A DNA stretch of 47,611 nt from Nitrospira sp. CG24C (GTDB lineage: Bacteria; Nitrospirota; Nitrospiria; Nitrospirales; Nitrospiraceae), in contig NEWR02000010.1 of the NCBI GenBank assembly GCA_002869885.2, positions 303,429 to 351,039 of the forward strand, written 5' to 3'. The notes below the pieces were generated by a model. It was not told the origin of the DNA. It searched no databases and saw only the letters and a list, made by a program, of their open reading frames with translations. The first letter of the stretch is position 1. Every line of letters starts with the position of its first letter. Positions 1,001 to 47,131 of the stretch are shown in pieces. The translations under genes and the position numbers were made by a program.

Positions 1001-1108
1001 GTTCATCCGGTTTATCTCGTTTGTTTAGTTTGTTTGGTGTCTTCGAACGAAACAAACCAAATGAACTAAATGAACTAAATAAACCAGACCAACCAGATCA
1101 ACTAGTCA
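1001..1108. repeat. Inverted pair of degenerate 9-nt tandem repeats (TTTGGTTTG type)
   Basis: The left arm (about 1004-1039) iterates TTTGGTnnn-like units. The right arm (about 1048-1105) iterates the complementary AACCAAAnn units. They meet around a TCTTCGAAC centre and can fold into a long imperfect hairpin. It fills the gap between the waaF start and the lpxK stop. Confidence 0.8.
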
Positions 1109-1110
1109 TC

Positions 1111-1153
1111 TGCCCTTCAGCCTTCAGCCTTCCGACTCCGCCTTCAGCCTATT
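1111..1153. repeat. 7-nt tandem repeat (CCTTCAG) over the lpxK 3' end
   Basis: CCTTCAG heptads occur in tandem with one degenerate interruption. On the minus strand the word AGGCTGA supplies the TGA stop of lpxK at 1124-1126, so the array encodes the last residues of the protein. Confidence 0.65.
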
Positions 1154-2203
1154 TCCCATCCCCAGCACCAACCGCTTCAATCGATCTTCCCCCACGGTCA
1201 CGGACGTGCTCAGTCGGACTGCCCACCAGCTATCGGTGGGTTCAAGTAACGATACCAACTTGCAGGCGTCTTTCTCGGTCGTCACGACCAGCTCGGCCCG
1301 GAGTTCAGCCGCTCTGGCGCTCAGGCTCTCGACATCCTGTCTCGTATAGGCATGGTGATCGACATAGGCCACTTCATCCAGAACCCTAATCCCGATTCGC
1401 TCAACGAGTGAGCGAAACGATCCGGCATGTCCCACACCGCTACAGAGCAACGCGGTCTTTCCTTTGGACCAAGAAAGCGGTTGGGATGCTCCTGTCACCA
1501 CCGACACCAGACTCTCCGGGCGAAAGACTGCCTGGATCGGATCCGGTATAAAGCCAAGCCTTGCCTTCAGCTTGCGACAGACCTCTGTGACCTGAGCCGG
1601 CGCGTCCGCTCTTGTGATGACGATCGCCGTCGCGCGCGCCGCCGCCCGCAGCGGCTCTCGGAGCCGTCCCGCTGGAACAAGGGCCGCGAGTCCCTCTATA
1701 TCCGTGGCATCGACCAGCAAGAGGTTCACATCTCGATAGAGTCCCTGGTGCTGAAATCCATCGTCGAGCACCAGACAATCGACCGGAAATCGTTCCAAGA
1801 CCCAATCCCCAAGCTCATAGCGATCGGCGCCCACCGCAACGATCGCCTTGGGACAACGCTGCGCCATCAAGAATGGCTCATCGCCTGCCTCGTTCGGGCC
1901 AACCAGCAGGCGCTCGCCATTCGACACGAGCAGATATCGATCTGTACTTGTCCGTCGATAACCCCGGCTGAGGATCGCCACCCGTTTCCCCTGTGCCAGA
2001 AGCCACTCGACAAGCAGAATGACCACCGGAGTTTTTCCCGTCCCGCCCAGCGTAAGATTCCCAACACTCAGCACCGGGACCGGCAGTTTTCGCTGATCAA
2101 ACCAGCCCCAGTCGTAGAGAATCGCGCGCAACCGCGCAACCACTCCATAGGGGATTGCGGCCCACATCAGCCACCATCTGACCTTTGTACCAGGCTTCAA
2201 CAC
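1124..2203 (-). CDS. lpxK: Tetraacyldisaccharide 4'-kinase LpxK
   Basis: It phosphorylates the 4' position of the tetraacyl-disaccharide 1-phosphate to give lipid IVA at the inner face of the cytoplasmic membrane. The protein has 359 residues. A short hydrophobic N-terminal segment is followed by the P-loop NLTLGGTGKTPVV near residues 49-61, then SRGYRR and LVLDDGFQHQ, which are LpxK hallmarks. The start is GTG at 2203 without a clear Shine-Dalgarno; an in-frame ATG twelve codons later would cut into the membrane segment. The C-terminal tail and stop lie inside a heptad repeat. It sits between waaA and waaF, as in many lipid A clusters. Confidence 0.95.
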   Translation of the reverse strand: MLKPGTKVRWWLMWAAIPYGVVARLRAILYDWGWFDQRKLPVPVLSVGNLTLGGTGKTPVVILLVEWLLAQGKRVAILSRGYRRTSTDRYLLVSNGERLLVGPNEAGDEPFLMAQRCPKAIVAVGADRYELGDWVLERFPVDCLVLDDGFQHQGLYRDVNLLLVDATDIEGLAALVPAGRLREPLRAAARATAIVITRADAPAQVTEVCRKLKARLGFIPDPIQAVFRPESLVSVVTGASQPLSWSKGKTALLCSGVGHAGSFRSLVERIGIRVLDEVAYVDHHAYTRQDVESLSARAAELRAELVVTTEKDACKLVSLLEPTDSWWAVRLSTSVTVGEDRLKRLVLGMGNRLKAESEG

Positions 2204-2224
2204 GGTTCGTAACTGCCCAGGTAG

Positions 2225-2351
2225 ATAGGCTGAAGGCTGATCTTGTTCATCTGGTCTGTCTGGTCATCTGGTTGGTCTGGTTTATCCGGTTAGTCTGGGG
2301 CAACAAGTACACGAGACAGACCTGCCTCCCCCCTAACAGCCTTCAGCCTAT
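2225..2351. repeat. 15-bp inverted heptad repeat enclosing a 9-nt tandem array
   Basis: A 15-base sequence built of AGGCTGA words at 2225-2239 is exactly complementary to 2337-2351. Between them, about 2243-2298 iterates a 9-nt TCTGGTTnn unit. The right arm contains the TAG stop of waaA (2348-2350). Two word classes are therefore nested in one gap between lpxK and waaA. Confidence 0.75.
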
Positions 2352-3772
2352 CGACCTGAGCAGGTACCGCTTTTCTCGGCCATGAGGGGAAGCGACCGGT
2401 TCGCGAGAGGAAACCCACTGGCGCCTTGCTGCGCGGTCAGCAGCCTGTCGATAGCCTCCACGGTCTGCTGCAAGGCTCCCTGATTCTGTTCGACCACCTG
2501 GCGAGCCGACCGGCCCATTCGCTCCCGTTCTTCGTCATCAGCAAAGAGGGCCTTGACTTGTTTCGTGAGATCTTCCGTCTGGAGCACCCGACGGCCCCCT
2601 CCCGCCTGAATCAGGAGGTCTGCAACCTCCGCACAGTGGTCGGTGTAGGGACCGAACAATACCGGCTTCGCCCACTGAGCCGGCTCCAGCAAATTATGTC
2701 CGCCGACCGGAACGAGTGTGCCCCCGACGAACGCCACCACCGCTTCCCGGTAGATCGCGGCCAATTCGCCCCGCGAATCGAGCAGCACCACGCGGGGACC
2801 AGTAGCCCCAATTTCACCGGCCTGCCCGATGGCACTGCGCCGCTGCACGGTAATCCCACGCGCCCGAATCATTGACTCCACCGATTCCGCTCGTTCGATG
2901 TGCCGAGGAGCCAGCAGCAAGACTGCCGAGGAACACTGTGTCGCGAGCGACTGATAACATTCCACGAGGGCTTCTTCTTCACCGGGATGAGTACTGCCTG
3001 CCACAAATAGCTGTTCCGTTTCCTGAAGCCCAAGACGATCCCTGATCCTCCCGGTCTGCGTGACGGCCGGTATCGGCTGGTCGAACTTGATGTTTCCTGT
3101 TCGCCTGACTCGCGAAGCTTCTGCTCCCAGCGCAACGATACGGTCGACATCCCGATCCGACTGCATCAGGCAGAGGCTGAGCGTCTGCAACATCGTCCGG
3201 TAGAACGATCGCACCGGCGCCCACTGCTGACGCTCAAAAGACCTGGTTGAAAGCCGGCCATTCACGAGAACGGTCGGCACTCCGCGCCGACGCAGATGCC
3301 ACAAGAGATTCGGCCAAAGTTCGGTCTCGACAAATAGATAGAGGCAGGGTTGCAGTCGATCGATAAACCGGGAGACGACCCAGGGGAAATCGAGCGGCGC
3401 ATAACAGTGGTCTGCCACACCAGCCAACCGCTGCTCTACAGCTTCCCGTCCAGTCTCGGTCACCGTCGAGACTACCAAACGATATTCAGGATGACGGCGA
3501 TGCAGCTCGTTGACAAGCGGTGTCACCCCCACGACTTCGCCGAGAGAGACGGCGTGAATCCAGATCACTGGTTGATTTGGTTTGTTTGGTTGGTCTGGTT
3601 TATTTGGTTTCTTTTGTTCGAAAGCACCAAACAAACGAAACAAACCAAACGAACCTTCTTCTAAACCCAGCCGCTGCGGCAAGCCGGGACGGCACCGTGG
3701 CTTGGCCAACAGCACCGCCACGATGACCGGCGAGACGACCAGCAACAGTATATTGTAAATGAGACGCCACAT
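2348..3772 (-). CDS. waaA: 3-deoxy-D-manno-octulosonic acid (Kdo) transferase with repeat-encoded insertion
   Basis: A GT30 enzyme that transfers Kdo from CMP-Kdo to lipid IVA. It has an N-terminal membrane anchor (residues about 4-22), then WIHAVSLGEV, FVETELWPNLL, VNGRLSTRSF, GSTHPGEEE and VPVGGHNLLEPA, which is the WaaA motif order. Residues about 40-67 are low complexity, with PNK, PDQ, PNK, PNQ tripeptides, and have no counterpart in E. coli WaaA. They are encoded by a 9-nt-word palindrome and lie exactly between the anchor region and the first catalytic-domain motif. I chose the ATG at 3772, which begins MWRLIYN like family N-termini. A start at 3838 is also open, but neither has a good ribosome-binding site. 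Confidence 0.93.
   Translation of the reverse strand: MWRLIYNILLLVVSPVIVAVLLAKPRCRPGLPQRLGLEEGSFGLFRLFGAFEQKKPNKPDQPNKPNQPVIWIHAVSLGEVVGVTPLVNELHRRHPEYRLVVSTVTETGREAVEQRLAGVADHCYAPLDFPWVVSRFIDRLQPCLYLFVETELWPNLLWHLRRRGVPTVLVNGRLSTRSFERQQWAPVRSFYRTMLQTLSLCLMQSDRDVDRIVALGAEASRVRRTGNIKFDQPIPAVTQTGRIRDRLGLQETEQLFVAGSTHPGEEEALVECYQSLATQCSSAVLLLAPRHIERAESVESMIRARGITVQRRSAIGQAGEIGATGPRVVLLDSRGELAAIYREAVVAFVGGTLVPVGGHNLLEPAQWAKPVLFGPYTDHCAEVADLLIQAGGGRRVLQTEDLTKQVKALFADDEERERMGRSARQVVEQNQGALQQTVEAIDRLLTAQQGASGFPLANRSLPLMAEKSGTCSGR
3566..3657. repeat. 9-nt-word palindrome inserted inside waaA
   Basis: The left arm iterates TTTGGTTnn on the plus strand, the centre is TTTTGTTCGAAAGCACC, and the right arm is the complement. 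The 53 bases 3597-3649 are identical to 21764-21816, an intergenic copy. Because the unit is 9 nt the waaA frame stays open through it. Confidence 0.85.
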
Positions 3773-3845
3773 ATGATGAGCTGTCAGCCACAGTAATGGA
3801 CTGTGGCGCGTGAAACGCGAGACATGCGAGAAAGGCATGACTCAT

Positions 3846-3900
3846 AGTTCGAAGTTCCGGGTTCGAAGTTCAGAAAACCTCGAACTTCGGACCTCGAACT
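3846..3900. repeat. Inverted pair of 7-nt tandem repeats (AGTTCGA type)
   Basis: The left arm reads AGTTCGA, AGTTCCG, GGTTCGA, AGTTC. After a short AGAAAAC loop the right arm reads CTCGAAC, TTCGGAC, CTCGAAC. It lies between waaA and the conserved-frame stop of the LpxJ-like gene, with which it overlaps at 3899-3900. Confidence 0.8.
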
Positions 3901-4572
3901 ATCCCCCGTCTCGCTTGGCTACGGCCCCCTCCGCCTGTTCCGTCAGTCGATTCAGGACCGTCTCAAGCTCCAGGCATGCCGCCGCCAACGCCTGTTCATC
4001 GGAATCCCGCGAAACCCAGATGGGAGCGCCCCACAGATAGAGACCTCGGGACCATGGGTACGGGACCATGAACCGATCCCAGCTCGCAAAGAGTTTTTTT
4101 TTGAGCAGCTAAAGGCCAGCGGTACAATCGGAAGCCCGGTCGCCTTCGCCAGCTGCACCACTCCGAGTTTCGCAACCTGGCGAGGCCCCTTGGGTCCATC
4201 GGGGGTCACCACAAGATCGGCGCCGGATCGCCCAAGACGGATCAGCTCCCGTAAGGCAAGCGCCCCACCCCTGGTACTCGATCCACGAACCGCCCGATGC
4301 CCGAATCGAGAGATGATACGCGCGATGATCTCGCCATCCTGATGCCGGCTGATCAACACGTTGGCTCCTGGCCCACGATAGCCAGTCGGAATCATCAGTT
4401 GCTGCGCATGCCAAAACGCGAGGATGATATGCCGTCCCTGACGATACAACGCATCCACCTGCTCGTGCCCCTGTGAATCCATCCGCATCGATCGCCCCAG
4501 CCCTCGAATCACCGCAGCCCCGATCGGAGGAAGCACGGAGAGTTTCAGCCAATTCCCGATTTGCTTCTTCAC
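3899..4572 (-). CDS. DUF374 lysophospholipid acyltransferase-like protein (LpxJ-like) with a frameshift
   Basis: A candidate late lipid A acyltransferase. DUF374 proteins include LpxJ, which replaces LpxL/LpxM in some bacteria, and none of those is seen here. The GTG start at 4572 has GGAG five bases upstream. The frame runs through FWHAQQL, VRGSSTRGG, TPDGPKGPR and GVVQLAKATGLPIVPLAF. At an A9 run (4094-4102) the zero frame leaves family-like sequence and stops at 3952. The -1 frame continues with LFASWDRFMVPYPWSRGLY and a normal family C-terminus to the TAG at 3899-3901. The run contains A-AAA-AAC in phase, so programmed -1 frameshifting or transcriptional slippage could make the full protein. 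A sequencing error or a recent pseudogene are alternatives. It sits between msbA and waaA. Confidence 0.8.
4094..4102 (-). other. A9 homopolymer / A-AAA-AAC slippery site in the LpxJ-like gene
   Basis: On the coding strand the codons are TCA AAA AAA AAC TCT. A one-base backward slip, or one extra A in the mRNA, gives AAA AAA CTC TTT and restores the conserved C-terminal frame. A small CATGG/CCATG stem lies about 27 bases downstream. Confidence 0.7.
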
Positions 4573-4585
4573 GCGTTCTCCAGTT

Positions 4586-4618
4586 CATCACTCATCACCG
4601 ATCACACATCACAGTCAT
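4586..4618. repeat. Single-arm 7-nt tandem repeat (TCATCAC)
   Basis: Tandem TCATCAC, TCATCAC, CGATCAC, ACATCAC heptads fill the short gap between the msbA stop and the ribosome-binding site of the LpxJ-like gene. No facing arm is seen. Confidence 0.65.
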
Positions 4619-4619
4619 C

Positions 4620-6365
4620 TTATGCATCCGGCACATCCTGGAACTGCATGGCGTGAAGCCGCTGATATTGTCCGCCGCGGCGAAGCAGCTCGTCGTGCGT
4701 CCCCACTTCGACGATCGACCCTCGGGCCAACACCATGATTCGATCGGCCTGTTGAATCGTAGACAACCGATGGGCAATCACAACGGTCGTTCGGTTTTTC
4801 ATCAAGTTGGCGAGGGCCAGCTGAACAACCCGCTCGGACTCTGTGTCCAACGCCGATGTCGCTTCATCGAGGATGAGCAGGGGAGGATCGCGTAAAATCG
4901 CGCGGGCGATGGCCAAGCGCTGCCGTTCCCCGCCGGAGAGCTTCACCCCTTTCTCACCCACGATTGTCTGATACCCCTGCGGAAAACGCTCGACAAAATC
5001 ATGGGCATAGGCCAATCGCGCCGCCTGGATAATATCGTCGTCGGTCGCATCCTCCCGTCCAAAGGCAATGTTGTTGCGAATACTGTCGTCGAACAAGACG
5101 ACATCTTGCGACACCATGCCGATCTGCGATCGGAGCGAGCGGAGGGTGTAGGACTGAATATCGACTCCATCGATGAGAATGCGGCCGGTTGTCGGTTCGT
5201 AAAAACGCGGGATCAGATTGACGAGCGTCGTCTTTCCACTGCCGCTGCTGCCCACCAGAGCCACCATTTCCCCGGCGCGAATCGTCAGACTGATGTCGTT
5301 GAGAGCCGGCAGGGTCTGGCTTTCATAATAAAACGTCACGTCGTCGAACGTCACGGATTGCGCAACCCGCGGCAACTCCAATTGGCCCTTCTCCGCATCC
5401 TGCTCGGTCTTGAGGTCCAAGACATCGAAGACCCGTTCCGCCGCAGCTAACGCCTGTTGAACCTGATTGTTGGAGTTGGCTAGTTTGCGAATCGGGGTAT
5501 AGGCCATGAACATTGCGGCTAGAAACGAGAAAAACGCCCCCGGCGTCATTGAGCCGTTGATCACGAGAAACCCACCATACCAAATAATGGCCGCAACCCC
5601 CACGACACCGATCACTTCCATATGCGACGACCCGAGGGAGAAGACTTGAGTCGCCTTCATCGTCGTACGGAGAAAAGAGCGATTGCTCTGTTGAAATCGC
5701 GCGGCCTCCGACTCTTCGCGTCCATAGGCCTTGACCGTGCGAATGCACGATAACGTTTCCTGGAGTGTGGAGGCCATATCCCCCATCCGCTCCTGACCGC
5801 TTACCGCCAACGCCCGCAACCGCTTCCCCATCCGCAGCGTCGTGAGCACAGCCAAGGGAATGACGATCACCGAGAGGGTAGCCAGCCGCCATTCCTGATA
5901 GAAGATCACGCCCATCATCGCCAGAAACGTGAGTCCCTGCAACACTACATCTTTCAGGACTCCCGACACCGCGTTGGCCATCAACGTGACGTCGTTCACC
6001 ACACGGGACACCAACCGTCCCGACGTATTCACATCGTGATAGGGAACGGGCAAACGAATGAGTTTCCCGAATAGCTCCTGTCGAACGTCGGTGATCACCC
6101 GATTTCCGACATAACTCATGAGATAGTTTTGCCCGTAGCTAAAGACGCTCTTGAGCACTGACACGGCAAAAAGCGCGAGCGGGAGCACCAGCAAGAGGCT
6201 TTCATTCTTATTGATGAAGATCTCGTCGAGGACCGGCTTGACGAGCCAGGCGTAGGCGGCGGAGGAGGCCGCTACCAGCCCCGAGCACACGAAGGCTGAA
6301 CCCAACCGCACTCGATAAGGTTTCACGTAGCGAAGCAACCGTATGATGCGATCTAGAGTCGACAT
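4620..6365 (-). CDS. msbA: Lipid A export ABC transporter MsbA
   Basis: A half-size ABC exporter that flips core-lipid A from the inner to the outer leaflet of the inner membrane as a homodimer. The 581 residues comprise a six-helix transmembrane domain (about 20-310) and a nucleotide-binding domain. The latter has Walker A GSSGSGKTT, signature LSGGERQRLAIARA, Walker B PLLILDEATSALD and the switch His in IAHRLST. The length matches MsbA (about 580). Its start overlaps the end of lpxB by 13 bases, so the two are probably translationally coupled. The setting among lpx genes favours MsbA over a drug exporter. Confidence 0.93.
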   Translation of the reverse strand: MSTLDRIIRLLRYVKPYRVRLGSAFVCSGLVAASSAAYAWLVKPVLDEIFINKNESLLLVLPLALFAVSVLKSVFSYGQNYLMSYVGNRVITDVRQELFGKLIRLPVPYHDVNTSGRLVSRVVNDVTLMANAVSGVLKDVVLQGLTFLAMMGVIFYQEWRLATLSVIVIPLAVLTTLRMGKRLRALAVSGQERMGDMASTLQETLSCIRTVKAYGREESEAARFQQSNRSFLRTTMKATQVFSLGSSHMEVIGVVGVAAIIWYGGFLVINGSMTPGAFFSFLAAMFMAYTPIRKLANSNNQVQQALAAAERVFDVLDLKTEQDAEKGQLELPRVAQSVTFDDVTFYYESQTLPALNDISLTIRAGEMVALVGSSGSGKTTLVNLIPRFYEPTTGRILIDGVDIQSYTLRSLRSQIGMVSQDVVLFDDSIRNNIAFGREDATDDDIIQAARLAYAHDFVERFPQGYQTIVGEKGVKLSGGERQRLAIARAILRDPPLLILDEATSALDTESERVVQLALANLMKNRTTVVIAHRLSTIQQADRIMVLARGSIVEVGTHDELLRRGGQYQRLHAMQFQDVPDA

Positions 6366-7480: not shown

Positions 7481-7486
7481 AGCCTC

Positions 7487-7706
7487 TGGGGAGGGGGTAG
7501 AGGGATAACGGGGTAAGGGGGTATTGGGGACGGGACAGGGGGACAGCGGGGTAACGAGGCAGAAGAGTAAAAGTCTACCTGTTTATTATCCCTACCCCGT
7601 TTACCCCCTTACCCCCTTTATCCCTTTTTTATCTCCTTACCCCGCTACCCCACTATCCCGTTACCCCGATTATCCCTTTATCCCATTGCCCCTTCCCATG
7701 CCCCGC
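7487..7706. repeat. Large inverted pair of degenerate 8-nt tandem repeats (GGGGTAAn type)
   Basis: The left arm (about 7487-7556) iterates GGGATAAC, GGGGTAAG, GGGGTATT and GGGGACGG. The right arm (about 7590-7706) iterates TACCCCGT, TTACCCCC, TATCCCGT and TTATCCCT. It lies between the Gfo/Idh gene and lpxB, and encodes the last dozen Gly-rich residues and the TAA stop of the Gfo/Idh protein. Confidence 0.8.
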
Positions 7707-8661
7707 TACCCCCTTCTTCAATGCGGGATGCAAAGGCCGCTATGGCTTGCAATACTTGATGTGCCACAGCCACTGCAGCCGCCCCATCCTCACCCGATAC
7801 CACCGGCCTCGTACCAGTGTCGACGGCATGAAGAAACGATTCGAGCTGGAGCTTCAAGGGTTCTTCATCTCCGCCCTGCAAATGCGTCACGTCGACAGTC
7901 GGCCGCTCCCCTGCCTCGGCGCTGCGCCGGCAAATCATGCCTTGCCTGGTCTGAAAATCGATCGACAGATAATTGTCTCGTTGGAAGATGCGCAGCCGGC
8001 GCATCTTATTCGTCGACACGCGGCTGGAGCTCAGGTTGGCGACAGCGCCGCTCCGGAACTGAATACGGGCATGCGCAATATCGATCGAGGAGGATAACAC
8101 CGCCACCCCCGCAGCACGCACCTCTTCAACGGGGCCGGGATTCAACGACAGCACGAGATCCAGATCGTGAATCATCAGGTCCAGCACCACATCCACGTCC
8201 GTCCCCCGCTCACTGAAACTGCTGAGGCGGTGACATTCGATGAATACAGGCTTTGTGATATGGGGACGCATTACGGCCATGACCGGATTGAACCGTTCGC
8301 TGTGGCCGACCTGTAAACGACAGCCCCGCTGCTTGGCCAGCTCTACCAACTCCTGCGCTTCACCAGGCATCACGGCGATCGGCTTTTCGACCAACAGATG
8401 CTTGCCCGCCTGCAGACAAGATTTTGCGACGGCATAGTGGCCTGAGGTGGGCACTGCTACACTGACAACATCGACCTGCGACAACAACTCATCAACCGTA
8501 CGAAAGACGCGTGCCCCATGCCGATCTGCGACCACCTGCGCACGCTCGACCGACTGATCGAGCACGCCGACGAGTTGCGCTCCAGGCAAGGAGGCATAGA
8601 GGCGCGCATGGTGCTGCCCAAGGTGTCCGACGCCAATGACTCCTGCCCGAAACGGCTTCAT
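7678..8661 (-). CDS. Gfo/Idh/MocA-family NAD(P)-dependent dehydrogenase in the lipid A cluster
   Basis: A 327-residue oxidoreductase. The N-terminal Rossmann fold has GVIGVGHLGQHHARLY, the family Lys lies in LLVEKPIAV (about residues 93-101), and DLMIHDLDLVL is typical of the C-terminal domain. The family oxidises sugar or nucleotide-sugar hydroxyls. Its position between lpxI and lpxB suggests a UDP-sugar substrate in lipid A or core synthesis. One precedent is GnnA, which oxidises UDP-GlcNAc at C3 for amide-linked lipid A, but no GnnB-like aminotransferase is in the window, so the substrate remains open. The last dozen Gly-rich residues come from the GGGGTA repeat. Confidence 0.85.
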   Translation of the reverse strand: MKPFRAGVIGVGHLGQHHARLYASLPGAQLVGVLDQSVERAQVVADRHGARVFRTVDELLSQVDVVSVAVPTSGHYAVAKSCLQAGKHLLVEKPIAVMPGEAQELVELAKQRGCRLQVGHSERFNPVMAVMRPHITKPVFIECHRLSSFSERGTDVDVVLDLMIHDLDLVLSLNPGPVEEVRAAGVAVLSSSIDIAHARIQFRSGAVANLSSSRVSTNKMRRLRIFQRDNYLSIDFQTRQGMICRRSAEAGERPTVDVTHLQGGDEEPLKLQLESFLHAVDTGTRPVVSGEDGAAAVAVAHQVLQAIAAFASRIEEGGSGAWEGAMG

Positions 8662-8675
8662 ATAAGATCTTGATC

Positions 8676-8782
8676 GTGATGAGTGAGGGGTGATGGGTGA
8701 TGAGACGACGGGAAGAGAACAGGCACACCGGCTCGTTTCTTTGTCTGGGACTCATCACATATCACAGATCACCCATCACTCC
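8676..8782. repeat. Inverted pair of 7-nt tandem repeats (GTGATGA type)
   Basis: The left arm (8676-8705) reads GTGATGA, GTGAGGG, GTGATGG, GTGATGA. The right arm (8750-8781) reads CTCATCAC, ATATCAC, AGATCAC, CCATCAC. The TGA stop of lpxI (8776-8778) is part of the right arm. Confidence 0.8.
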
Positions 8783-9612
8783 GGCTTGATCCCGACAATG
8801 GCAATACGGGCAGACTTGGCCTTCTCCAGCACGATCTCGCGATCCAACAGGATGGTTCGTCCTGCCTCGATCGCCAAGACGGAGGCCTTGACCGACGCCA
8901 TCACCTCGATGGTCCGAGGCCCCACGGCCGGAAGATCGAACCGCATGTCCTGCTGCGGCTTCGATCGTTTGACCACCACCGCGCCCTCCTTGGCCAAATC
9001 ACCGCCGCGCTTGATGGCTCCGTCGGTGCCCTCGACCGCCTCGACGGCCACGACCACACGATCTTTGATCACCACACATTGCCCGATATCGAGACGTCCG
9101 ATCTCACGCACCACATCCCATCCGTAGCGGATGTCCTCCCACTCTTTCTCCGACGGAGCCCGCGTGGTCAACGTCCCTTCTTCTGCAAGGATCCCCTCAA
9201 GCCCAAAGGTCGATTCACAGATGGCAATCCCTTCTCCCTCAAGCTCCTTTGCGAATTCGCGCAGAATATCGTCGTCCTTCCAGAGCGCCAACCGCGTCGC
9301 CATCGCCAAGGTGCGAAAATCCGGACGGATCGTCGTAAAGACATGCGTCTTCTTGATCCCGCCCAACATCACGGCCTGGTGGACCCCGTCTTCCTTGAAT
9401 GCCTTGATCAGCTTGTTCATCTGGCCGATCTTGATCCAATGGATACGATCGACATGACCGGCTAATTCCGGTTCCGTCTCACCTTCATGCGCCACAGCCG
9501 ACACATGATAGCCGAGCTTTCTGGCATTGTCCGCAAAGATGATCGGGAACCGGCCATTACCGGCAATGAGCCCAATCCGCTCGCCATCGGTGACCTGGGG
9601 TCGAAATGCCAC
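8776..9612 (-). CDS. lpxI: UDP-2,3-diacylglucosamine diphosphatase LpxI
   Basis: It hydrolyses UDP-2,3-diacylglucosamine to lipid X and UMP. It is the non-homologous substitute for LpxH found in alphaproteobacteria and other lineages, and no lpxH is visible here. The N-terminus has RIGLIAGNGRFPIIFA. The C-terminal domain has DLPAVGPRTIEVM and VLAIEAGRTILLDRE, which are LpxI signatures. The preferred start is the GTG at 9612, with GAGGAG eight bases upstream inside the end of lpxA; longer in-frame starts at 9627 and 9663 would overlap lpxA without a usable ribosome site. About 278 residues, normal for the family. Confidence 0.93.
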   Translation of the reverse strand: MAFRPQVTDGERIGLIAGNGRFPIIFADNARKLGYHVSAVAHEGETEPELAGHVDRIHWIKIGQMNKLIKAFKEDGVHQAVMLGGIKKTHVFTTIRPDFRTLAMATRLALWKDDDILREFAKELEGEGIAICESTFGLEGILAEEGTLTTRAPSEKEWEDIRYGWDVVREIGRLDIGQCVVIKDRVVVAVEAVEGTDGAIKRGGDLAKEGAVVVKRSKPQQDMRFDLPAVGPRTIEVMASVKASVLAIEAGRTILLDREIVLEKAKSARIAIVGIKPE

Positions 9613-9616
9613 GCGC

Positions 9617-10423: not shown

Positions 10424-10436
10424 TCTGAACCTCCGG

Positions 10437-10519
10437 TTCACGTTAATCGTCAATCGTTATTTGTGAATCGCCAAGCGTCCTATCCCCATCCTCCACGATT
10501 CACGTATAACGGTTCACGT
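10437..10519. repeat. Inverted pair of 7-nt tandem repeats (CGTTAAT/CGATTCA type)
   Basis: The left arm reads CGTTAAT, CGTCAAT, CGTTATT, TGTGAAT. The right arm reads CGATTCA, CGTATAA, CGGTTCA, CG. They are imperfectly complementary over about 22 bases. It lies between the lpxA ribosome-binding site and the 3' end of fabZ. Confidence 0.7.
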
Positions 10520-10963
10520 CGCGGCTTTCTCCTCGGTCACCATTGCGGTCACTTCGGCTTCACAGACGAGTTCGTCCTCGACAAACGCTTTACCTTGCAT
10601 CTTCCAAAATGGCGCCCGTTTCTTGACCACATCGATCTCAAATCGCAATCGATCACCGGGCACGACCGGTTTTCGAAACTTCGCCCCATCGATACCGGTC
10701 AGATACACCAACGGACGTGCCACGTTCCCTAGCGATTTAAACGCCAGAATCGCACCGACTTGAGACATGGCTTCAAGAATCAACACGCCAGGCATGACCG
10801 GGCGCCCAGGGAAATGCCCTTGAAAGAAGGGTTCATTGATCGTCACATTCTTGAACCCAACGATCCGCCGGTCTGGCTCCAACTCCTGCACCCGATCGAC
10901 CAGGAGAAACGGATATCGATGAGGCAAAAGGGATTGAATCTCAGCTTGTTCCATGATGGACAT
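10514..10963 (-). CDS. fabZ: 3-hydroxyacyl-ACP dehydratase FabZ
   Basis: It dehydrates beta-hydroxyacyl-ACP in type II fatty acid synthesis and so competes with LpxA for hydroxyacyl-ACP. The 149 residues have a hot-dog fold with LLPHRYPFLLVDRV, the catalytic His in GHFPGRPVMPGV (His50) and the catalytic Glu in LILEAMSQVG (Glu64). The ATG at 10963 has GGAGG eight bases upstream. It lies directly before lpxA, as in most lipid A clusters, but lpxD is not in its usual place upstream. Confidence 0.97.
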   Translation of the reverse strand: MSIMEQAEIQSLLPHRYPFLLVDRVQELEPDRRIVGFKNVTINEPFFQGHFPGRPVMPGVLILEAMSQVGAILAFKSLGNVARPLVYLTGIDGAKFRKPVVPGDRLRFEIDVVKKRAPFWKMQGKAFVEDELVCEAEVTAMVTEEKAAT

Positions 10964-11020
10964 CGTCTAGACCTCCTACTTCGAAGCTTCAGCCACTGGA
11001 AAGCAGTATATTCTCAAAGG

Positions 11021-11140
11021 AGGATACTCAAAATGGCTGTTCAGCAAGGCCGCAGCGAGCGAAGAGGCGAGGCGTACGCTTCGGTACGTTGAGCCTCTAA
11101 GCGATGCGAGAACGAAGCTGACGGACATTTTCAGCATCCT
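11021..11140. repeat. ~120-bp inverted repeat, class I, copy 1
   Basis: It runs from AGGATACTCAAAATGG to ATTTTCAGCATCCT with self-complementary arms around ACGCTTCGGTACGT. Related copies lie at 33745-33912, 36905-37025 and 44881-45004. It fills the fabZ-skp gap where lpxD is often found. The A/T-rich stem ends could act as a two-way terminator. Confidence 0.85.
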
Positions 11141-11676
11141 CACTTATTCTGTCGATCGAACTCCTTGACCACCTGATCGGTCACATCCAGCGCGGGCTGA
11201 TGATAAAGCACGATCTTAATCGCCGCCTCGCTCCCCTTATCGATCACCGCGCTGAACCCGCTCTTCTCTCCCACAGCTTGCGCGGCCGCTTGCACTTTCT
11301 TCGAGTATTCCGCCACCATTTCACGTTGCTTCTGCTGAATCTCCCGATTGAAGTCAGCCATGCGACGTTGATACGCGTCCAACTTAGCCTGGAACTGACC
11401 TTGCTTCTCTTGCTTCGCGCTGTCGGATAATTTCCCGTCTTGAATCGCCAGTTGCAATTCCTTCAGTTCTTGATCGTCGGCATTGATGATCTTTTGCCTG
11501 GTCATGGAGTACGCCTTAAGCTCTTCCAAGGCCCGCTTGCCGGCCTTCGACTGCTCAATCACCAATTGTTGATTCATCACCGCGACCTTGAAGGTTTCAT
11601 CCGACAGCGCCGGCGACAGCATCACCAGCCACAGCCCGATAGCACTGAGAGCGCACGCGACTTTCGTTCGTTGCAT
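11140..11676 (-). CDS. Periplasmic OmpH/Skp-family chaperone
   Basis: A Skp-like holdase that would bind unfolded outer-membrane proteins in the periplasm before BamA. A signal peptide (residues about 1-25) precedes the mature chain. The latter contains a long Lys/Glu/Gln-rich coiled coil, as in Skp tentacles, and a C-terminal ALDVTDQVVKEFDRQNK. The start is ATG at 11676, with GGGAGG six bases upstream. The frame is open further to 11772, but that extension is only the translated 9-nt repeat (NETNKTNQK). About 178 residues. It is the second of two adjacent paralogues. Confidence 0.88.
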   Translation of the reverse strand: MQRTKVACALSAIGLWLVMLSPALSDETFKVAVMNQQLVIEQSKAGKRALEELKAYSMTRQKIINADDQELKELQLAIQDGKLSDSAKQEKQGQFQAKLDAYQRRMADFNREIQQKQREMVAEYSKKVQAAAQAVGEKSGFSAVIDKGSEAAIKIVLYHQPALDVTDQVVKEFDRQNK

Positions 11677-11688
11677 CGAATCCTCCCA

Positions 11689-11781
11689 CTGGTTTTGCTG
11701 GTCTTTTTGGTTTGTTTTGTTTGTTTCGTTGATCAGCCCAACCAAAGAAACCAAACAAACTAAACGAACCAAATCAACCGT
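11689..11781. repeat. Inverted pair of 9-nt tandem repeats between the two skp genes
   Basis: The left arm iterates TGGTTTTGC, TGGTCTTTT, TGGTTTGTT; the right arm has ACCAAAGAAACCAAACAAAC. The centre (CGTTGATCAGCCC) differs from the waaA copy, so this is a diverged member. Confidence 0.75.
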
Positions 11782-11786
11782 CTCGC

Positions 11787-12341: not shown

Positions 12342-12381
12342 ACCGCTACCTCCCATTTCTTAGCCTAAAAAACTACTCCGT

Positions 12382-14718: not shown

Positions 14719-15137
14719 CGGATCTGTGTTCCATGAAAAAAATAGGAAGATAATACCGGCGACATGGATAATCCTAACTTTGACTTCGACCGTAGACCCT
14801 GCGCCTCTGCCTCAAACTCACACACAACGGATCCGGGGCGCGTGCCATGATCGCGGCTGCGGAAGTTCCCGACGTGAGAGGTTCACACAGTCGGGGCACA
14901 CGTATCCCTCGGGGAACATGCATGCAAAACTCTCGGATTATATTGGGCACGTATTTGAATGTAAAGCTGAGGGCGCACATTATTCGCGCAAGGCGCGAAG
15001 AGCGGGATTCGCGAGACAAGGACGGTTCGAGGTCCGAAGTTCGAGGTTTCTAAAACTTCGAACCCAGAACTTCGAACATCGAACTGTAGTCCGTTTCGTC
15101 CCCCCACCCGTCCGCTAAACATCTGCTCGTGCATTCC
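14719..15137. other. Gene-free spacer between divergent bamA and galU
   Basis: About 420 bases without a convincing gene. It holds the heptad palindrome at 15024-15086 and presumably the bamA promoter, which I could not place with confidence. A 33-codon minus-strand frame near 14930 containing CPDC is too short to call. Confidence 0.6.
15024..15086. repeat. Inverted pair of 7-nt tandem repeats (GGTTCGA type)
   Basis: The left arm reads GGTTCGA, GGTCCGA, AGTTCGA. The right arm reads ACTTCGA, ACCCAGA, ACTTCGA, ACATCGA. It is the same word family as the element at 3846-3900. Confidence 0.8.
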
Positions 15138-16085: not shown

Positions 16086-16088
16086 CAG

Positions 16089-16217
16089 GCCCTGTTTGTT
16101 TGGTTGATGCGGTTTGTTTCGTTCATTTGGTTGGTCCAGTCAATTAAAGAGCCAAGGGTCATCTGATTGTTTTATTCATCCCATTCCTCAACCAAATAAA
16201 CCAAAGAAACAAGGACA
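16089..16217. repeat. 9-nt-word quasi-palindrome between galU and lon
   Basis: The left part (16089-16136) iterates TTTGGTTGATG, CGGTTTGTTT, CGTTCATTTGG. The right part (16191-16215) has AACCAAATAAACCAAAGAAAC. The arms are separated by about 55 unrelated bases, so this copy is looser than the others. Confidence 0.65.
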
Positions 16218-16225
16218 CCATTCCC

Positions 16226-21733: not shown

Positions 21734-21832
21734 ACTGGTTTATCTGGTTTGTTTTGTTGATTTGGTTTATTTGGTTTCTTTTGTTCGAAAGCACCAAACA
21801 AACGAAACAAACCAAATAGACCAAACAAACAA
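21733..21832. repeat. Inverted pair of 9-nt tandem repeats after the HD gene
   Basis: It starts at the HD stop codon and iterates TTTGGTTnn, then TTTTGTTCGAAAGCACC, then the complementary arm. Bases 21764-21816 are identical to the copy inside waaA (3597-3649). It may serve as a hairpin terminator. Confidence 0.85.
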
Positions 21833-21913
21833 GATTGCTGACAGCCAGCCGCTCTACTGCAATACTACTGATACCACGTCAATAGCGCAGCACCATCTGC
21901 ACGGAGGACAACC

Positions 21914-28014: not shown

Positions 28015-28114
28015 ACTGGTTTGTTTGGTTGATTTGGTTATCTGGTTGGTTTGGTCGACTTAGTTTGGTCTGGTTCAACAAAACAGACCAAACAAACCAA
28101 ATGAACCAATTAGG
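28015..28114. repeat. Inverted pair of 9-nt tandem repeats between prcA and pafA
   Basis: The left arm iterates TTTGGTTGA, TTTGGTTAT and CTGGTTGG units. The right arm carries ACCAAACAAACCAAATGAACC and reaches the prcA stop codon (28110-28112). It separates pafA from the other proteasome genes. Confidence 0.8.
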
Positions 28115-33701: not shown

Positions 33702-33742
33702 GGGGAAGTGCTGAGCCCAAAGTGCTGAGTGCTGAGGCCTGA
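33702..33742. repeat. Single-arm 7-nt tandem repeat (GTGCTGA)
   Basis: GTGCTGA, GCCCAAA, GTGCTGA, GTGCTGA, GGCCTGA directly upstream of the thiE start. Confidence 0.6.
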
Positions 33743-36874: not shown

Positions 36875-36904
36875 AATATACTGTCCTTTCCCGTTCCCTA
36901 TCCA

Positions 36905-37025
36905 GGATGCTGAAAAAGTCCGCCAGCGGCGTTCTCGCTTCGCTCAGAGGCTCAACGTACCGAAGCGTACGCCTCGCCTCTTCGCTCGCTGCGGCCTTGC
37001 TGGACAGCCTTTTTGAGCATCCTGA
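36905..37025. repeat. Class I inverted repeat, copy 3
   Basis: It runs from GGATGCTGAAAAAGTCCGCC to CAGCCTTTTTGAGCATCCTG with self-complementary arms around CGTACCGAAGCGTACG. It is nearly the reverse complement of copy 1. It lies between the EnvC-like gene and the protease. Confidence 0.88.
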
Positions 37026-37099
37026 GTTTTTGTGGCATCAGCGCCACTTTGTGATATCTCAATGATGTTGTATGTATAAACCAGTTTTCCTGCAACGTG

Positions 37100-39848: not shown

Positions 39849-39852
39849 TTTA

Positions 39853-40035: not shown

Positions 40036-40039
40036 CGCC

Positions 40040-40432: not shown

Positions 40433-40436
40433 CGGC

Positions 40437-41102: not shown

Positions 41103-41159
41103 GGTGTGGCCCCACGATACTCCAGTTGAAAGGGTACCAAGCAGTCGTGGTTGAGGGAA

Positions 41160-42659: not shown

Positions 42660-42662
42660 AGA

Positions 42663-42947: not shown

Positions 42948-42993
42948 TAGAATCCTCCTCCTGTACGAAACATCCGTATGATGGTATCGACCC

Positions 42994-44340
42994 TTACCTG
43001 GAGCGCATCATCTGCGCAAGCTGCCTGCGCCCTCCAGACCCTGCCATAACCTTGGCGATTTTTCTCGCCGAGAGAAACTGTTTAATCAATCGATTCACCT
43101 CTTCCACCTTCGTACCGCTTCCACGGGCAATCCGCTTTTTTCTGCTTCCATTGATGACCGTATGATCCCGCCGCTCGCGTACCGTCATCGAGTCGATCAT
43201 CGCCGTGACTCGTTTCATCTCTCGCTCCGGTACCTGCCCATCCATCGCGCCCTTAAGCTTCTGCCCGCCCGGCAGCATCCCTAAAATCTGGTCCATCGAA
43301 CCCAGACGGCTGACTTGCTTCAGCTGGGCACTGAAATCCTCCAGCGTAAGTGTGTTGCTGGTCAGCCGTTTCTGCGTCTCCTCTGCCTGCTCACGCGAAA
43401 AGGTCTCTTGCGCCTTTTCAATCAGCGAGAGGACGTCGCCCATTCCAAGGATGCGCGAGGCCATCCGATCGGGATGAAACAACTCCAACGCATCGAGCTT
43501 CTCGCCCACACCCAAAAACTTGATCGGCTTGCCGGTCACCGCCCGGATAGACAGCACCGCCCCGCCACGGGCATCGCCTTCAACCTTGGTCAGAATGACG
43601 CCGGTCAGTCCGATACGTTGATCGAATTGACTTGCCATCGTGACCGCATCTTGGCCCGTCATCGCATCGGCCACCAAGAGTACTTCCTGCGGTTTCACGG
43701 CGGCTCTCACAGCCACCAATTCCCCCATCAACTCATCGTCAATGTGGAGACGCCCGCCAGTGTCCAGTACGACGAGATCGCACCCCTGGTCCCGCCCCCG
43801 TTCCACACCAGCCTGGCAGATGCGGACGACATCGGATTGGACAGCCTGTGCCTGATCTGCACGATATACATCGATGCCAAGATCTCGTCCTAGACTCGCT
43901 AATTGGTCACCGGCTGCCGGACGACGAGGATCTGCCGCAACCAGGAGAACCCGTTTCCCTTGAGCCTTAAAGTACCGTCCAAGCTTGCCGCACGTCGTCG
44001 TCTTTCCAGCGCCTTGGAGCCCCACCATCATGACGACAGTCGGGGGATTCGAGGCCAGAGCCAGGCCGGCTCGCTCGCTGCCCATCATCTCCCGCAGCTC
44101 TTCCCACACGACCTTGACGACCTGGTGCCCAGGCGTCAAACTCTTGAGGACTTCCTGCCCAACGGCCTTCACGCGAACCCGCTCGATGAAGTCCTTGACG
44201 ATCTTGAAATTGACGTCGGCTTCGAGCAGCGCGAGACGAACTTCTTTCAACGCTTCCGCAATGTTCTGTTCAGTGAGCACTCCAGAACCGCGAAGCTTCT
44301 TGAAAATATTTTCGAATTTTTCGCTGAGAGCGTCCAGCAT
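42994..44340 (-). CDS. ffh: Signal recognition particle protein Ffh
   Basis: GTPase that with 4.5S RNA targets nascent membrane proteins to FtsY. The 448 residues comprise an N domain, a G domain (GLQGAGKTTTCGKLGRYF, DPRRPAAGDQL, VVLDTGGRLHID, TKVEGDARGG) and a Met-rich M domain (MDQILGMLPGGQKLKG, then GSRKKRIARGSG). Two positions differ from the common sequences: DTGGR for DTAGR and TKVEGDA for TKLDGDA. It is the first gene of the operon. No 4.5S RNA gene was recognised nearby. Confidence 0.97.
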   Translation of the reverse strand: MLDALSEKFENIFKKLRGSGVLTEQNIAEALKEVRLALLEADVNFKIVKDFIERVRVKAVGQEVLKSLTPGHQVVKVVWEELREMMGSERAGLALASNPPTVVMMVGLQGAGKTTTCGKLGRYFKAQGKRVLLVAADPRRPAAGDQLASLGRDLGIDVYRADQAQAVQSDVVRICQAGVERGRDQGCDLVVLDTGGRLHIDDELMGELVAVRAAVKPQEVLLVADAMTGQDAVTMASQFDQRIGLTGVILTKVEGDARGGAVLSIRAVTGKPIKFLGVGEKLDALELFHPDRMASRILGMGDVLSLIEKAQETFSREQAEETQKRLTSNTLTLEDFSAQLKQVSRLGSMDQILGMLPGGQKLKGAMDGQVPEREMKRVTAMIDSMTVRERRDHTVINGSRKKRIARGSGTKVEEVNRLIKQFLSARKIAKVMAGSGGRRQLAQMMRSR

Positions 44341-44423
44341 AGCGCCACAAAGAAAAAGGCAATCGAAGCCTTAATCCCACATCTCCGATCGCCTAGAAAA
44401 CTCTAGCAAAAGAGCATCGGGGA

Positions 44424-44452
44424 GTCTAAAGGACGAGGCAGGTTGAAGTCAA
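44424..44452 (-). promoter_or_regulatory. Promoter of the ffh-rpsP-rimM-trmD-rplS-rnhB-yraN operon
   Basis: On the minus strand: TTGACT (44452-44447), a 17-base spacer and TTAGAC (44429-44424). The start point near 44417 leaves a leader of about 77 bases before ffh. Confidence 0.5.
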
Positions 44453-44541
44453 GAGAACGTACTCCAAGATAATGGATCACGGTTCGCCACAAAACTGCGG
44501 CGCTTACTAAGTACTGCGGGCCAAACAAAGCGTACATTTTA

Positions 44542-44570
44542 TTGACATGTCGCAGACCTTTCGCTAAGGT
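44542..44570 (+). promoter_or_regulatory. Promoter of the DUF4321 gene
   Basis: TTGACA (44542-44547), a 17-base spacer and TAAGGT (44565-44570). The -35 is perfect and the -10 weak. The start point would be about 40 bases before the GTG. Confidence 0.45.
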
Positions 44571-44618
44571 CCGACGATACCTCCGTAAGACTACGCAGAG
44601 AGCTATAAGGCGGATGCC

Positions 44619-44879
44619 GTGAAAAAATCACCTCTGATTCTAATCGTTTTCATACTCATCGGGGGGCTATTGGGTGGAGTATTGGGAGAAATTCTCAGGG
44701 TCATGGCCCCGCACGGCACAATTCAATCGATCTTCGCCACCAGCTATGCCCTCGGTATCACCGAGCCACTGACCATCGATCTGGTCCTCATTAAGTTCAC
44801 TATTGGCTTCCTCACCAAGATCAACCTCCTCAGTCTCATCGGGATGTTTCTGGGCATCTATCTATACAAAAACGTATAG
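44619..44879 (+). CDS. DUF4321 small membrane protein
   Basis: 86 residues with two hydrophobic segments (about 5-27 and 58-84) and PLTIDLVLIKFTIGFLTKIN between them, matching the DUF4321 pattern. The family has no known function. GTG start with AAGG about nine bases upstream. It stands alone between the divergent ffh operon and a class I repeat. Confidence 0.8.
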   Translation: MKKSPLILIVFILIGGLLGGVLGEILRVMAPHGTIQSIFATSYALGITEPLTIDLVLIKFTIGFLTKINLLSLIGMFLGIYLYKNV

Positions 44880-44880
44880 C

Positions 44881-45004
44881 AAGATGCTGAAAAAGCCCGC
44901 CAGCTTCGTTCTCGCATCGTTCAGATCCTCAACGTACCCCTGAGGGTACGCCTCGGATCTTCACTCGCTGCGGCCTTGCTGAACGGACTTTTTGAGCATC
45001 TTGC
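44881..45004. repeat. Class I inverted repeat, copy 4
   Basis: It runs from AGATGCTGAAAAAGCCCGCC to GGACTTTTTGAGCATCTTGC, with the central GTACCCCTGAGGGTAC hairpin. It lies between the convergent ends of the DUF4321 gene and uvrB. The A5/T5 ends on either strand suit a bidirectional terminator. Confidence 0.88.
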
Positions 45005-45010
45005 AACCTG

Positions 45011-47014
45011 CTAGATTTCCGGGTTCAATTCTAACTCTTTCAGCTTCAATGCTCGAATCCGGTTTCGGAGGGCTGCGGCCCGTTCAAATTCCAACTCCTT
45101 GGCGGCGGCTTTCATTTCCATTTCCAGCCGTTTGATGATCTGTTCGGTCGCTTCCTCTGCTCCATAGATCGCCGGCGACTCTGCAGCCAAATCCAGTTGC
45201 ATATCGTTCACTTCCGCCGTGGCATATTCGAGCGACAGGACGTCCTTCTTAATGCTCGTGGGTACGATACCGTGCCTGATATTATAGTCGGCCTGAATCG
45301 TACGCCGACGCTCGGTCTCGGCGAGCGCCATGCGCATAGAGTCGGTAATGGCATCACCGTACAAAATCACGTGGCCCCGCACATTCCTCGCTGCCCGCCC
45401 AGCCGTCTGGATCAACGACCGATAGGACCGAAGATAGCCTTCCTTATCCGCATCGAGAATCGCCACCAAGGTGACCTCGGGGAGATCCAACCCTTCACGC
45501 AGAAGATTGATCCCCACCAGCACATCGAACACCCCGCGCCGTAGATCCTGGATGATTTCAGCCCGCTCCAATGTCTTGATGTCAGAGTGCAGATACCGCA
45601 CTTTGATGCCAAGATCGTGGTAATACTCGCTCAAATCCTCTGCCATACGCTTGGTCAAGGTGGTGATCAGCACACGTCCGCCCTGCGCCGTTTCAGTCCG
45701 CACTTCGCCGAGAAGGTGATCCACCTGCCCTTTGGCCGGTCGCACCTCGATAACCGGATCCATCAGACCGGTCGGGCGAAGGATCTGTTCGACAATTTCT
45801 CCAGCCGCATGCCCCAACTCATAGGAGCCTGGCGTTGCCGAGACATACACCGCCTGCTTGAGACAACGCTCGAACTCGGCGAATTTGAGCGGCCGGTTAT
45901 CGATCGCCGAGGGCAACCGGAATCCGTACTCAACCAATGTGCGCTTCCGAGAATAGTCGCCCTCGTACATCCCGCCTACTTGGGGAATCGTCGCATGGGA
46001 TTCGTCGACGATCAGCAGAAAGTCTTTGGGGAAATAGTCGATGAGTGTCGGAGGCTGCTCACCGGGCGCACGGCCACTGAGATGCCGCGAGTAATTCTCG
46101 ATGCCATGGCAGTATCCCATCGCCCGAATCATTTCAAGATCGAACTTGGTGCGCTGCGCGATCCGCTGGGCCTCCACGAGCTGATTCTGTTTCTTGAAAA
46201 AGGCGACACGCTCGTCCAATTCTTCCTCAATGCCTGTAATCGCCTTCTCATACCGATCCGGGGCAATGAGATAATGCGTATTCGGGTAGACCGCGACTTT
46301 TGGAAGCTTCCTGAGCGACTTCCCCGTGAGCGGATCGATTTCGTGAATCGCGTCGACGACATCGCCGAACAACTCGATCCGCACGGATACCGCGTCATTC
46401 GAAGCAGGAAAGATCTCGATGACGTCGCCGCGGGCGCGAAAGGTGCCTCGATGAAAATCCATGTCATTGCGGGCATATTGGATTTCGACCAGCTTAGCCA
46501 GGATCTTCTCCCGCCTGATCTCCATCCCCTCTTCGAGGAATATCACCATCTCGTGATACACATCAGGCGACCCCAGGCCGTAAATACAGGAGACCGACGA
46601 GACGATCAGCACGTCGTTCCGTTGAAGCAACGCGGATGTCGCCGCATGCCGCATCTGATCGATCGCATCGTTGACCGACGCGTCCTTGGCAATGTACGTG
46701 TTGCTTTGGGGAATATAGGCTTCCGGCTGGTAGTAGTCGTAGTAGCTGACGAAATACTCTACCGCATTGTGGGGGAAAAACTGTTTGAACTCTTGATAGA
46801 GCTGACCGGCCAGCGTTTTGTTATGGACCAGCACCAACGTGGGCTTCTGCACCTGCGCGACCACATTGGCCATGGTAAAGGTCTTGCCGGATCCAGTCAC
46901 ACCGAGCAGCGCTTGATGCTTCCGTCCGGTCGCAATCCCAGCCACCAACTTATCGATGGCCTGGACTTGATCTCCGCAGGGCTTGAATGGGGCTTCGAGT
47001 TGAAACGGCGGCAT
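45011..47014 (-). CDS. uvrB: UvrABC system protein B
   Basis: DNA-damage verification helicase of nucleotide excision repair. The 667 residues have Walker [17 protein letters not shown] (about 36-51) and the beta-hairpin [16 protein letters not shown]-type Walker B is seen in [14 protein letters not shown], followed by [31 protein letters not shown] and a C-terminal UVR motif ([17 protein letters not shown]) that contacts UvrC. Complete. The ATG at 47014 has no ribosome-binding site but a -10-like TAAGAT eight bases upstream. Confidence 0.98.
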
Positions 47015-47022
47015 GGGAAGTT

Positions 47023-47053
47023 ATCTTACCATCGGAAGCAGCACGGCGTGCAA
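47023..47053 (-). promoter_or_regulatory. Possible promoter of uvrB
   Basis: On the minus strand: TTGCAC (47053-47048), a 19-base spacer and TAAGAT (47028-47023). The -35 match is poor and the spacer long, but the -10 lies eight bases before the ATG. Confidence 0.3.
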
Positions 47054-47060
47054 TACGTGC

Positions 47061-47131
47061 AGGCTGAAGCTGAGAAGGCTGAAGGCTGAAGTGTTCAGAG
47101 CTTCGAACTCCGACCTTCGGCCTTCAGCCTA
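47061..47131. repeat. Inverted pair of 7-nt tandem repeats (AGGCTGA type)
   Basis: The left arm iterates AGGCTGA heptads (47061-47091). The right arm (CGACCTTCGGCCTTCAGCCTAT) is complementary. It uses the same word as the elements at 1111 and 2225. It lies between the helicase stop and uvrB. Confidence 0.75.

Follow-up and report, generated by a model that had tools for sequence, protein, structure and literature searches.

Between the genes of a 47,611-nt stretch of a Nitrospira genome (the window; G000:C2:303429-351039, part of the 2.99-Mb genome G000), arrays of a 7-, 8-, or 9-nt word are faced by complementary arrays, forming tandem-word hairpins. We conclude with moderate confidence that these hairpins are one kind of module in a modular, partly nested class of dispersed palindromic repeats of Nitrospira and its family, on which both copying and slippage act. 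The window carries lpxK, waaA, msbA, lpxB, a mocA-like gene, lpxI, lpxA, a FabA-like gene (called fabZ), two OmpH-like genes, bamA, lon, and a Pup-proteasome cluster. The hairpins were first noticed in an interpretation of the letters alone (the sequence-only reading), which proposed one architecture with interchangeable words.

The class was quantified in an 831-kb, nonrandom sample of G000 (the first 400 kb of C22 and most of C2; 28% of the genome), in which genes were called with a simple hexamer model (668 kb of called coding sequence [CDS], with gaps totaling 162.6 kb). Tandem Repeats Finder (TRF) detected 140 arrays in the intergenic DNA, against a chance level of 1, 4, 1, 3, and 6 in five dinucleotide shuffles, and 37 arrays in the called CDS; a test set beforehand by the sequence-only reading, which would have been refuted by equally many paired arrays in shuffled intergenic sequence, thus came out in its favor. 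The intergenic excess lay mainly at periods 7/14, 8, and 9/18. An inverted partner array was present within 110 nt of 101 of the 123 intergenic arrays with a 7-, 8-, or 9-type period, compared with 2 for a direct partner and 1 for a partner that was only reversed; by period, facing partners accompanied 20/32 (7/14), 6/10 (8-type), and 75/81 (9-type) arrays. The 5' arm held more G than C in 57/57 9-mer, 16/17 7-mer, and 2/4 8-mer two-armed elements, counts in which copies of one family are nonindependent. Since this polarity is the same on both strands, the G-rich-first order is a property of the element and not of gene direction. The sample yielded a collection of 61 two-armed 9-mer elements, in which RNA folding gave z values below -3 on 109 of 122 strands. 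The commonest words (TTTGGTTTG, TCTGGTTTG, and similar) contain no G-quadruplex-capable runs of three or more G, and among the window words the GGGGTAA class has such runs. G-quadruplexes therefore cannot be the common reason for the architecture, because most words lack the G runs needed.

Of the 16 sites listed by the sequence-only reading, 13 proved to be two-armed (1001, 2225, 3566, 3846, 7487, 8676, 10437, 11689, 15024, 16089, 21733, 28015, and 47061) and three single-armed (1111, 4586, and 33702). Corrections to the listed sites are that 3566 lies inside the waaA CDS, that 7487 and 8676 overlap gene 3' ends, and that 2225 consists of a 9-mer hairpin nested in an AGGCTGA hairpin. When the 13 two-armed sites were folded as RNA, two of them in part (2205-2330 and 7525-7670), 10 beat all 200 dinucleotide shuffles. 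No Rfam family matched the window at gathering scores. The elements, with the genes and outer palindromes mentioned below, are as follows.

1001..1105, two-armed 9-mer (TTTGGTTNN) hairpin; RNA fold z -6.6, with 0/200 shuffles as good
1114..1150, CCTTCAG array, 3'-type arm only, without a fold on its own
2209..2367, AGGCTGA outer arms (2209-2239 and 2337-2367; 90% complementary) whose loop contains a 9-mer hairpin (2247-2322), a nesting also present in G005; the piece 2205-2330, folded without the outer 3' arm, does not stand out (71/200 shuffles as good)
2348..3772, minus strand, waaA (Kdo transferase) CDS, Pfam PF04413, start at 3772; contains the next element
3569..3655, two-armed 9-mer element inside waaA; 3572-3655 is an in-frame 28-codon stretch, mostly predicted to be disordered
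3844..3902, two-armed hairpin of AGTTCGA heptads, with a copy at another locus (85% over 85 nt)
4586..4613, one-armed CATCACA heptad array
7493..7715, two-armed GGGGTAA octad element that overlaps the mocA-like gene at its 3' end; the fold of piece 7525-7670 beats 200/200 shuffles
8674..8795, GTGATGA two-armed heptad element, overlapping the lpxI 3' end; 3/200 shuffles fold as well
10441..10520, CGTTAAT/CGTGAAT two-armed heptad element in a gap where the word varies by species
11140-11676, OmpH-like gene
11693..11777, two-armed 9-mer hairpin in the gap separating the two OmpH-like genes
15024..15085, two-armed hairpin of GGTTCGA heptads; fold z -5.6; copy elsewhere (81% over 79 nt)
16091..16210, 9-mer arms, 86% complementary, with a 55-nt loop; the whole-element fold does not stand out (34/200 shuffles as good)
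21736..21835, two-armed 9-mer hairpin sharing 54 identical nt with the waaA element
28015..28109, two-armed 9-mer hairpin in the gap that separates pafA from the proteasome-alpha gene
33702..33736, one-armed GTGCTGA heptad array (5'-type arm); weak fold, 7/200 shuffles as good
36903..37024, miniature inverted-repeat transposable element (MITE)-like outer palindrome (CAGGATGCTGAAAAAG ... CTTTTTGAGCATCCTG), of the kind carrying tandem-word hairpins elsewhere
44879..45004, second copy of that palindrome (CAGGATGCTGAAAAAG ... CTTTTTGAGCATCCTG)
47061..47130, two-armed hairpin of AGGCTGA heptads, upstream of uvrB
Gene g1 is lpxK, and gene g3 encodes a DUF374 protein

Whole-element copies occur at many loci. 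Among the 61 9-mer elements, 27 have a partner at ≥90% over ≥60 nt, and 20 word-randomized simulations gave none. Another copy at ≥80% over ≥45 nt was found for 9 of 25 heptad/octad elements (including one that is really the 9-mer piece at 2247), of which 6 belong to the TTCGAA class. Several heptad elements, such as those at 8676 and 10437, have no other copy, which indicates that local growth also occurs. Copying of whole hairpins between loci would spread the 9-mer and TTCGAA heptad families, and some of the copies would end up in the loops of other palindromes.

Nesting of this kind was observed repeatedly. Hairpins of the 9-mer and TTCGAA types were found inside a MITE-like shell with CAGGATGCT ends, CGTGAAN hairpins adjoin one end of the shell, and terminal inverted repeats are clear for the outer CAGGATGCTGAAAAAG shell. 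A shell motif lies within 60 nt of 17/61 9-mer elements (random, 11.5%), and 38/61 lack every end or hinge motif that was tried. The pattern GCGCGTCCAACGAG, an apex, and CGCGCGTTGCGCGAGCA has 101 sites, many of them by chance; 43 close without any 9-mer hairpin, 35 of them over an apex of 14 nt, and at 8 sites (3 in G000 and 5 in relatives) an 84- to 125-nt 9-mer hairpin replaces the apex. Most of the eight are alike inside and may derive from one common event. Several further observations concern these palindromes. The MITE-like palindrome CAGGATGCTGAAAAAGTCCGCCAGC ... CTTTTTGAGCATCCTG is mostly 122 to 126 nt long (up to ~270 nt) and dispersed, with several alternative interiors, and a third window site lies at about 11020-11141. 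The GCGCGTCCAACGAG/CGCGCGTTGCGCGAGCA palindrome is likewise abundant, occurring at many C2 and C22 sites and in the fabZ-OmpH gap of relatives, with about 14 nt between its ends and an apex that varies self-complementarily (GGGCCTTCTGAGGC, GCACATTCTTATCG).

One copy survives inside a conserved enzyme gene. The waaA element (3569-3655) is placed between the RLGL and PVIWIHAVSLGE motifs of WaaA, the solved relative of which is PDB 2xci. An insert after the WaaA N terminus is present in 19 genomes of the genus and in G019, without the word pattern in G007, G027, and G028; by eye, other WaaA inserts consist of GLF/GLS-type repeats followed by PNK/PDQ-type repeats. In 18 species, the landmark-to-landmark stretch measures 51 to 121 nt; its length is a multiple of 3 in 17 of them, and the value of 121 in the 18th is put down to a shifted landmark. 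Of 19 genomes from the family's other genera, 7 carry an insert, 11 lack it, and in 1 a short insert is possible; genus g2 includes both states. For 54 of the best 80 loci from named genomes in a WaaA scan, judged by eye and record title, the same mosaic of presence and absence recurs among the Nitrospirae records, and none of the 15 loci from other phyla has the insert. In a structure prediction (31 sequences), pLDDT (predicted local distance difference test) values fell below 50 at residues 40 to 63, predicted to be a loose linker that joins the N-terminal helix to the first strand. The insert, which some members of the family have at this site and others do not, thus shows clearly that a repeat can persist within the gene of a conserved enzyme, and it survives because the word length is a multiple of three. 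In locus L016 (G030), waaA has an early in-frame stop soon after the insert, and is either a pseudogene or affected by an assembly error.

The density of two-armed arrays per 100 kb was 12.8 in G000, 21.8 in other species of the genus, and 7.8 in other genera of the family, compared with 0.0 in other Nitrospirota (12 loci) and 3.1 in other phyla (in 10/41 loci); the lpx loci were picked for synteny, so array densities there are not whole-genome figures, and the values from outside the family come from 53 of the best 80 named loci, leaving out 27 near relatives. Some of the other-phyla arrays are GC-rich coding stretches. Clear heptad hairpins were recognized by eye in two Desulfobacterales, one deltaproteobacterium (several words), one acidobacterium, and one Lysobacteraceae record. 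The records from Desulfobacterota, Acidobacteria, and Lysobacteraceae with such facing hairpins, built from other words, are L142, L124, L123, L159, and L161, and the polarity of the L142 hairpin (4009-4110) is opposite. The exact pattern TTTGGTTTRTTTGGTT was tried as an element census and rejected as misleading, in that species of the TCTGGTCTG dialect, G003 and G011 among them, hold 9-mer elements and yet score zero. In G072, a genome of another family, 23 of the AGGCTGAAGGCTGA matches are forward and 2 are reverse, which is a strong bias of strand or array.

The hairpins might instead be plain heptad and nonamer microsatellites, born by slippage without a shared origin, with the pairing kept by selection for any hairpin at a gene end. 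Such an origin would account for the enrichment after stop codons (described below), for the heptad elements that have no other copy, and for the similar two-armed heptads of distant phyla. We consider it unlikely, in view of the whole-element copies among the 9-mers, the hairpins at the apex of a second palindrome, and the copy inside a coding sequence, all of which speak for a modular class of dispersed repeats.

Within that class, the words differ among species at the same locus. Some 20 syntenic species offer a natural experiment: the words change from one to another, and scores of the pairing allow selection, copying, and slippage to be separated. We compared nine orthologous gaps (159 gap-species pairs with both genes, of which 113, with 60 to 420 nt and no NN, were testable) and used a species tree of seven proteins from 20 species, with word labels assigned by eye. 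In the lpxA-fabZ gap, the word is GTGATGA, CGTGAAT, or GGTCATT depending on the species, each with a fitting partner arm, and at least four word changes are required on the tree (19 labeled species); of 1,000 label shuffles, 1 did equally well or better. The waaA-DUF374 gap requires at least seven changes of word or element type (17 species on the tree; 18 were labeled, and G024 is absent from the tree), or at least five in 15 species when the three heptad words are taken alone. The counts at both gaps were unchanged after branches with support of <0.8 were collapsed. Interchangeability of words on one architecture, as the sequence-only reading had it, is therefore borne out by word changes with a fitting partner arm; its expectation that orthologous gaps would keep a paired architecture proved right in part, self-complementarity beating all 40 shuffles in 69/113 gaps.

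How the two arms stay matched bears on another explanation offered by the sequence-only reading, i.e., template switching within hairpins, by which one arm is copied from the other at replication and the element corrects itself to a perfect palindrome. Arms of the same locus are indeed coupled across species, since cross-species arm swaps lowered pairing at lpxA-fabZ (z 5.1; 19 species), lpxB-mocA (z 3.4; 15 species), and the waaA insert (z 4.5; 18 species). The 9-mer arms behave otherwise. In G000, they pair no better within elements than between elements (19.6 versus 20.6; 4,944/5,000 permutations as high or higher; z -2.3), and in the genus sample (36 elements, 16 genomes) pairing within elements does not exceed pairing among arms of the same genome (P = 0.44), which is why a genome dialect can explain the coupling at the waaA insert. 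Between elements of one genome the arms match better than between genomes (P = 0.0007; 29 elements with a genome-mate, nonindependent). From these sequence comparisons, the unit of concerted change for the 9-mers looks like the genome and not the hairpin. That 9-mer arms are no better paired with their own partner is evidence against template switching from one arm to the other and favors copying between loci, by which each genome would acquire a 9-mer dialect of its own. Moreover, in the mocA-lpxI gap of G013, one arm has become three GTGCTGA units, while the loop and the facing arm remain near those of G000, a change of word in one arm but not in the other. This comparison supports slippage within one arm, the other process that the sequence-only reading had proposed. 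Template switching is thus not supported for the 9-mer class and may act at 7-mer loci, where the arms are coupled at lpxA-fabZ; as the process behind the hairpins overall, it seems to us quite improbable. Two other gaps were seen by eye to depart from the tree: the gap before lon (16086-16225) is near-identical in G000 and G005 and different in the tree-nearer G007, G027, and G028, and that between the OmpH-like genes (11677-11786) is near-identical in G000 and G028 and different in G007 and G027. Both patterns are possible cases of exchange of intergenic stretches.

With respect to genes, 39 of the 61 9-mer elements lie between codirectional genes, 14 in convergent gaps, 7 in divergent gaps, and 1 in a CDS. 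Elements in codirectional gaps are nearer the stop in 29/40 cases (P = 0.006), and divergent gaps are underused (7/60 versus 24% of gap length; P = 0.02). The hairpins could therefore fit a 3'-end or intercistronic RNA role, and the mRNA 3' function suggested by the sequence-only reading is sustained by position only. Its other suggestion, terminators, which as bidirectional transcription terminators would be consistent with stable hairpins on both strands and with 14/60 elements in convergent gaps, is very improbable, because a T4 tract follows just 8/61 elements, which makes canonical terminators unlikely, and 39/61 lie between codirectional genes, some within the lpx cluster, with one inside a gene.

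We therefore return to a class of dispersed palindromic repeats on which copying and slippage act. Besides the copying described above, replication slippage within an arm would multiply and homogenize a variant word, so that the word at a locus would drift while the opposite arm carries an identical or nearly identical word. At 7-mer loci, selection on an RNA hairpin close to the 3' ends of genes, and not a mutational process alone, would maintain the pairing, and the selected hairpin would act as an intercistronic stabilizer or a processing barrier. Several results weigh against this explanation. With copies found for 9/25 elements, a general dispersal of heptad/octad elements is not borne out, and 17/61 elements near a shell motif are too few for the MITE shell to be a general vehicle, so it is kept as a partial explanation. 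Y1_Tnp matches are present in 19/32 genomes of the genus (18 above the cutoff), and a RAYT was rejected as the mobilizer because a 9-mer pair lies within 1.5 kb of 1/18 fetched Y1 genes and a shell end near 2/18; no mobilizer for the elements was found among these 18 Y1 transposase loci. At the waaA-DUF374 gap, 101 of 1,000 label shuffles needed no more changes than the actual labels, which follow the tree little better than that, and arm swaps at mocA-lpxI revealed no coupling (z -2.0; 8 species, gaps of 90 to 140 nt). Self-complementarity failed to beat all 40 shuffles in 44/113 orthologous gaps, so that pairing is often absent or lost, and the excess of 9-mer elements in convergent gaps is not significant (P = 0.11). 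Separately, the sole Y1 (RAYT-like) match in G000 is C20:7882-8205, and the words tried are absent within 1.5 kb of it. A broader reading, which we put forward tentatively, is that of an element class that inherits architecture and not sequence, built from any of many 7- to 9-nt words, G rich first, nested, present in several phyla, and kept through a structure-reading factor or an RNA hairpin.

The cyanobacterial STRR are intergenic tandem heptads. The passages of PMC4679880 considered here describe TAACTGA repeats of Beggiatoaceae and cyanobacteria, most of them just upstream of starts, in 169 direct sets and one inverted set, with heptamers one base away rarely repeated. The Nitrospira arrays resemble the TAACTGA repeats as intergenic tandem heptads and differ from the one-orientation arrays of both systems in that 101/123 have an inverted partner. 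Like REPINs, for which passages of PMC3116915 report conserved ends, RAYT genes beside clusters, and 101 aligned members of one group, the Nitrospira elements are dispersed, many-copy hairpins of two inverted halves; unlike REPIN/RAYT systems, their arms are tandem words, and Y1 linkage was seen at 1/18 loci. The Rickettsia palindromic elements lie between genes and in frame, with 19 reading frames hit according to the passages of PMC2229807, and share with the Nitrospira elements a dispersed palindrome that is intergenic and also in frame in a conserved gene whose protein tolerates the insert. However, one of 61 Nitrospira elements is coding, so the many-genes-hit pattern of Rickettsia-type elements is not seen, and here the 9-nt word itself preserves the frame. 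In nematomorph mitochondria (PMC6649704), inverted repeats occur in coding sequence and both arms encode conserved protein, whereas the waaA insert is a variable linker that is predicted to be disordered. Among the best-ranked open-license literature, we found no report of such repeats in Nitrospira, and a search with six word strings gave one match, which was unrelated; a table of a REP survey (PMC12306157) includes N. moscoviensis.

The closest system is that of Xanthomonas. The sequence-only reading had taken facing arms to be undescribed, which is contradicted by passages of PMC4692102 that report facing GGGAATC pairs (70 in Xcc and 75 in Xac), with the G-rich strand first on the sense strand and within 50 bp of the stop. 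According to the same passages, the heptamers are underrepresented between divergent genes, vary in length among close species, and had no role found; GGGGA(C/T)T of Nostoc is also treated, with one word per genus studied as a G-quadruplex former. The facing-arm architecture is thus already described for one word, and the Nitrospira hairpins have in common with it the facing tandem heptads, the G-rich-first polarity, the position near stops, and the rarity between divergent genes. Unlike in Xanthomonas, the Nitrospira words are many, 7, 8, or 9 nt long, and mostly without three-G runs. The many-word vocabulary, the word switches, the genome dialect, the nesting, and the coding insert are additions that do not appear in those passages of PMC4692102, and they extend a one-word observation to a wider architecture.

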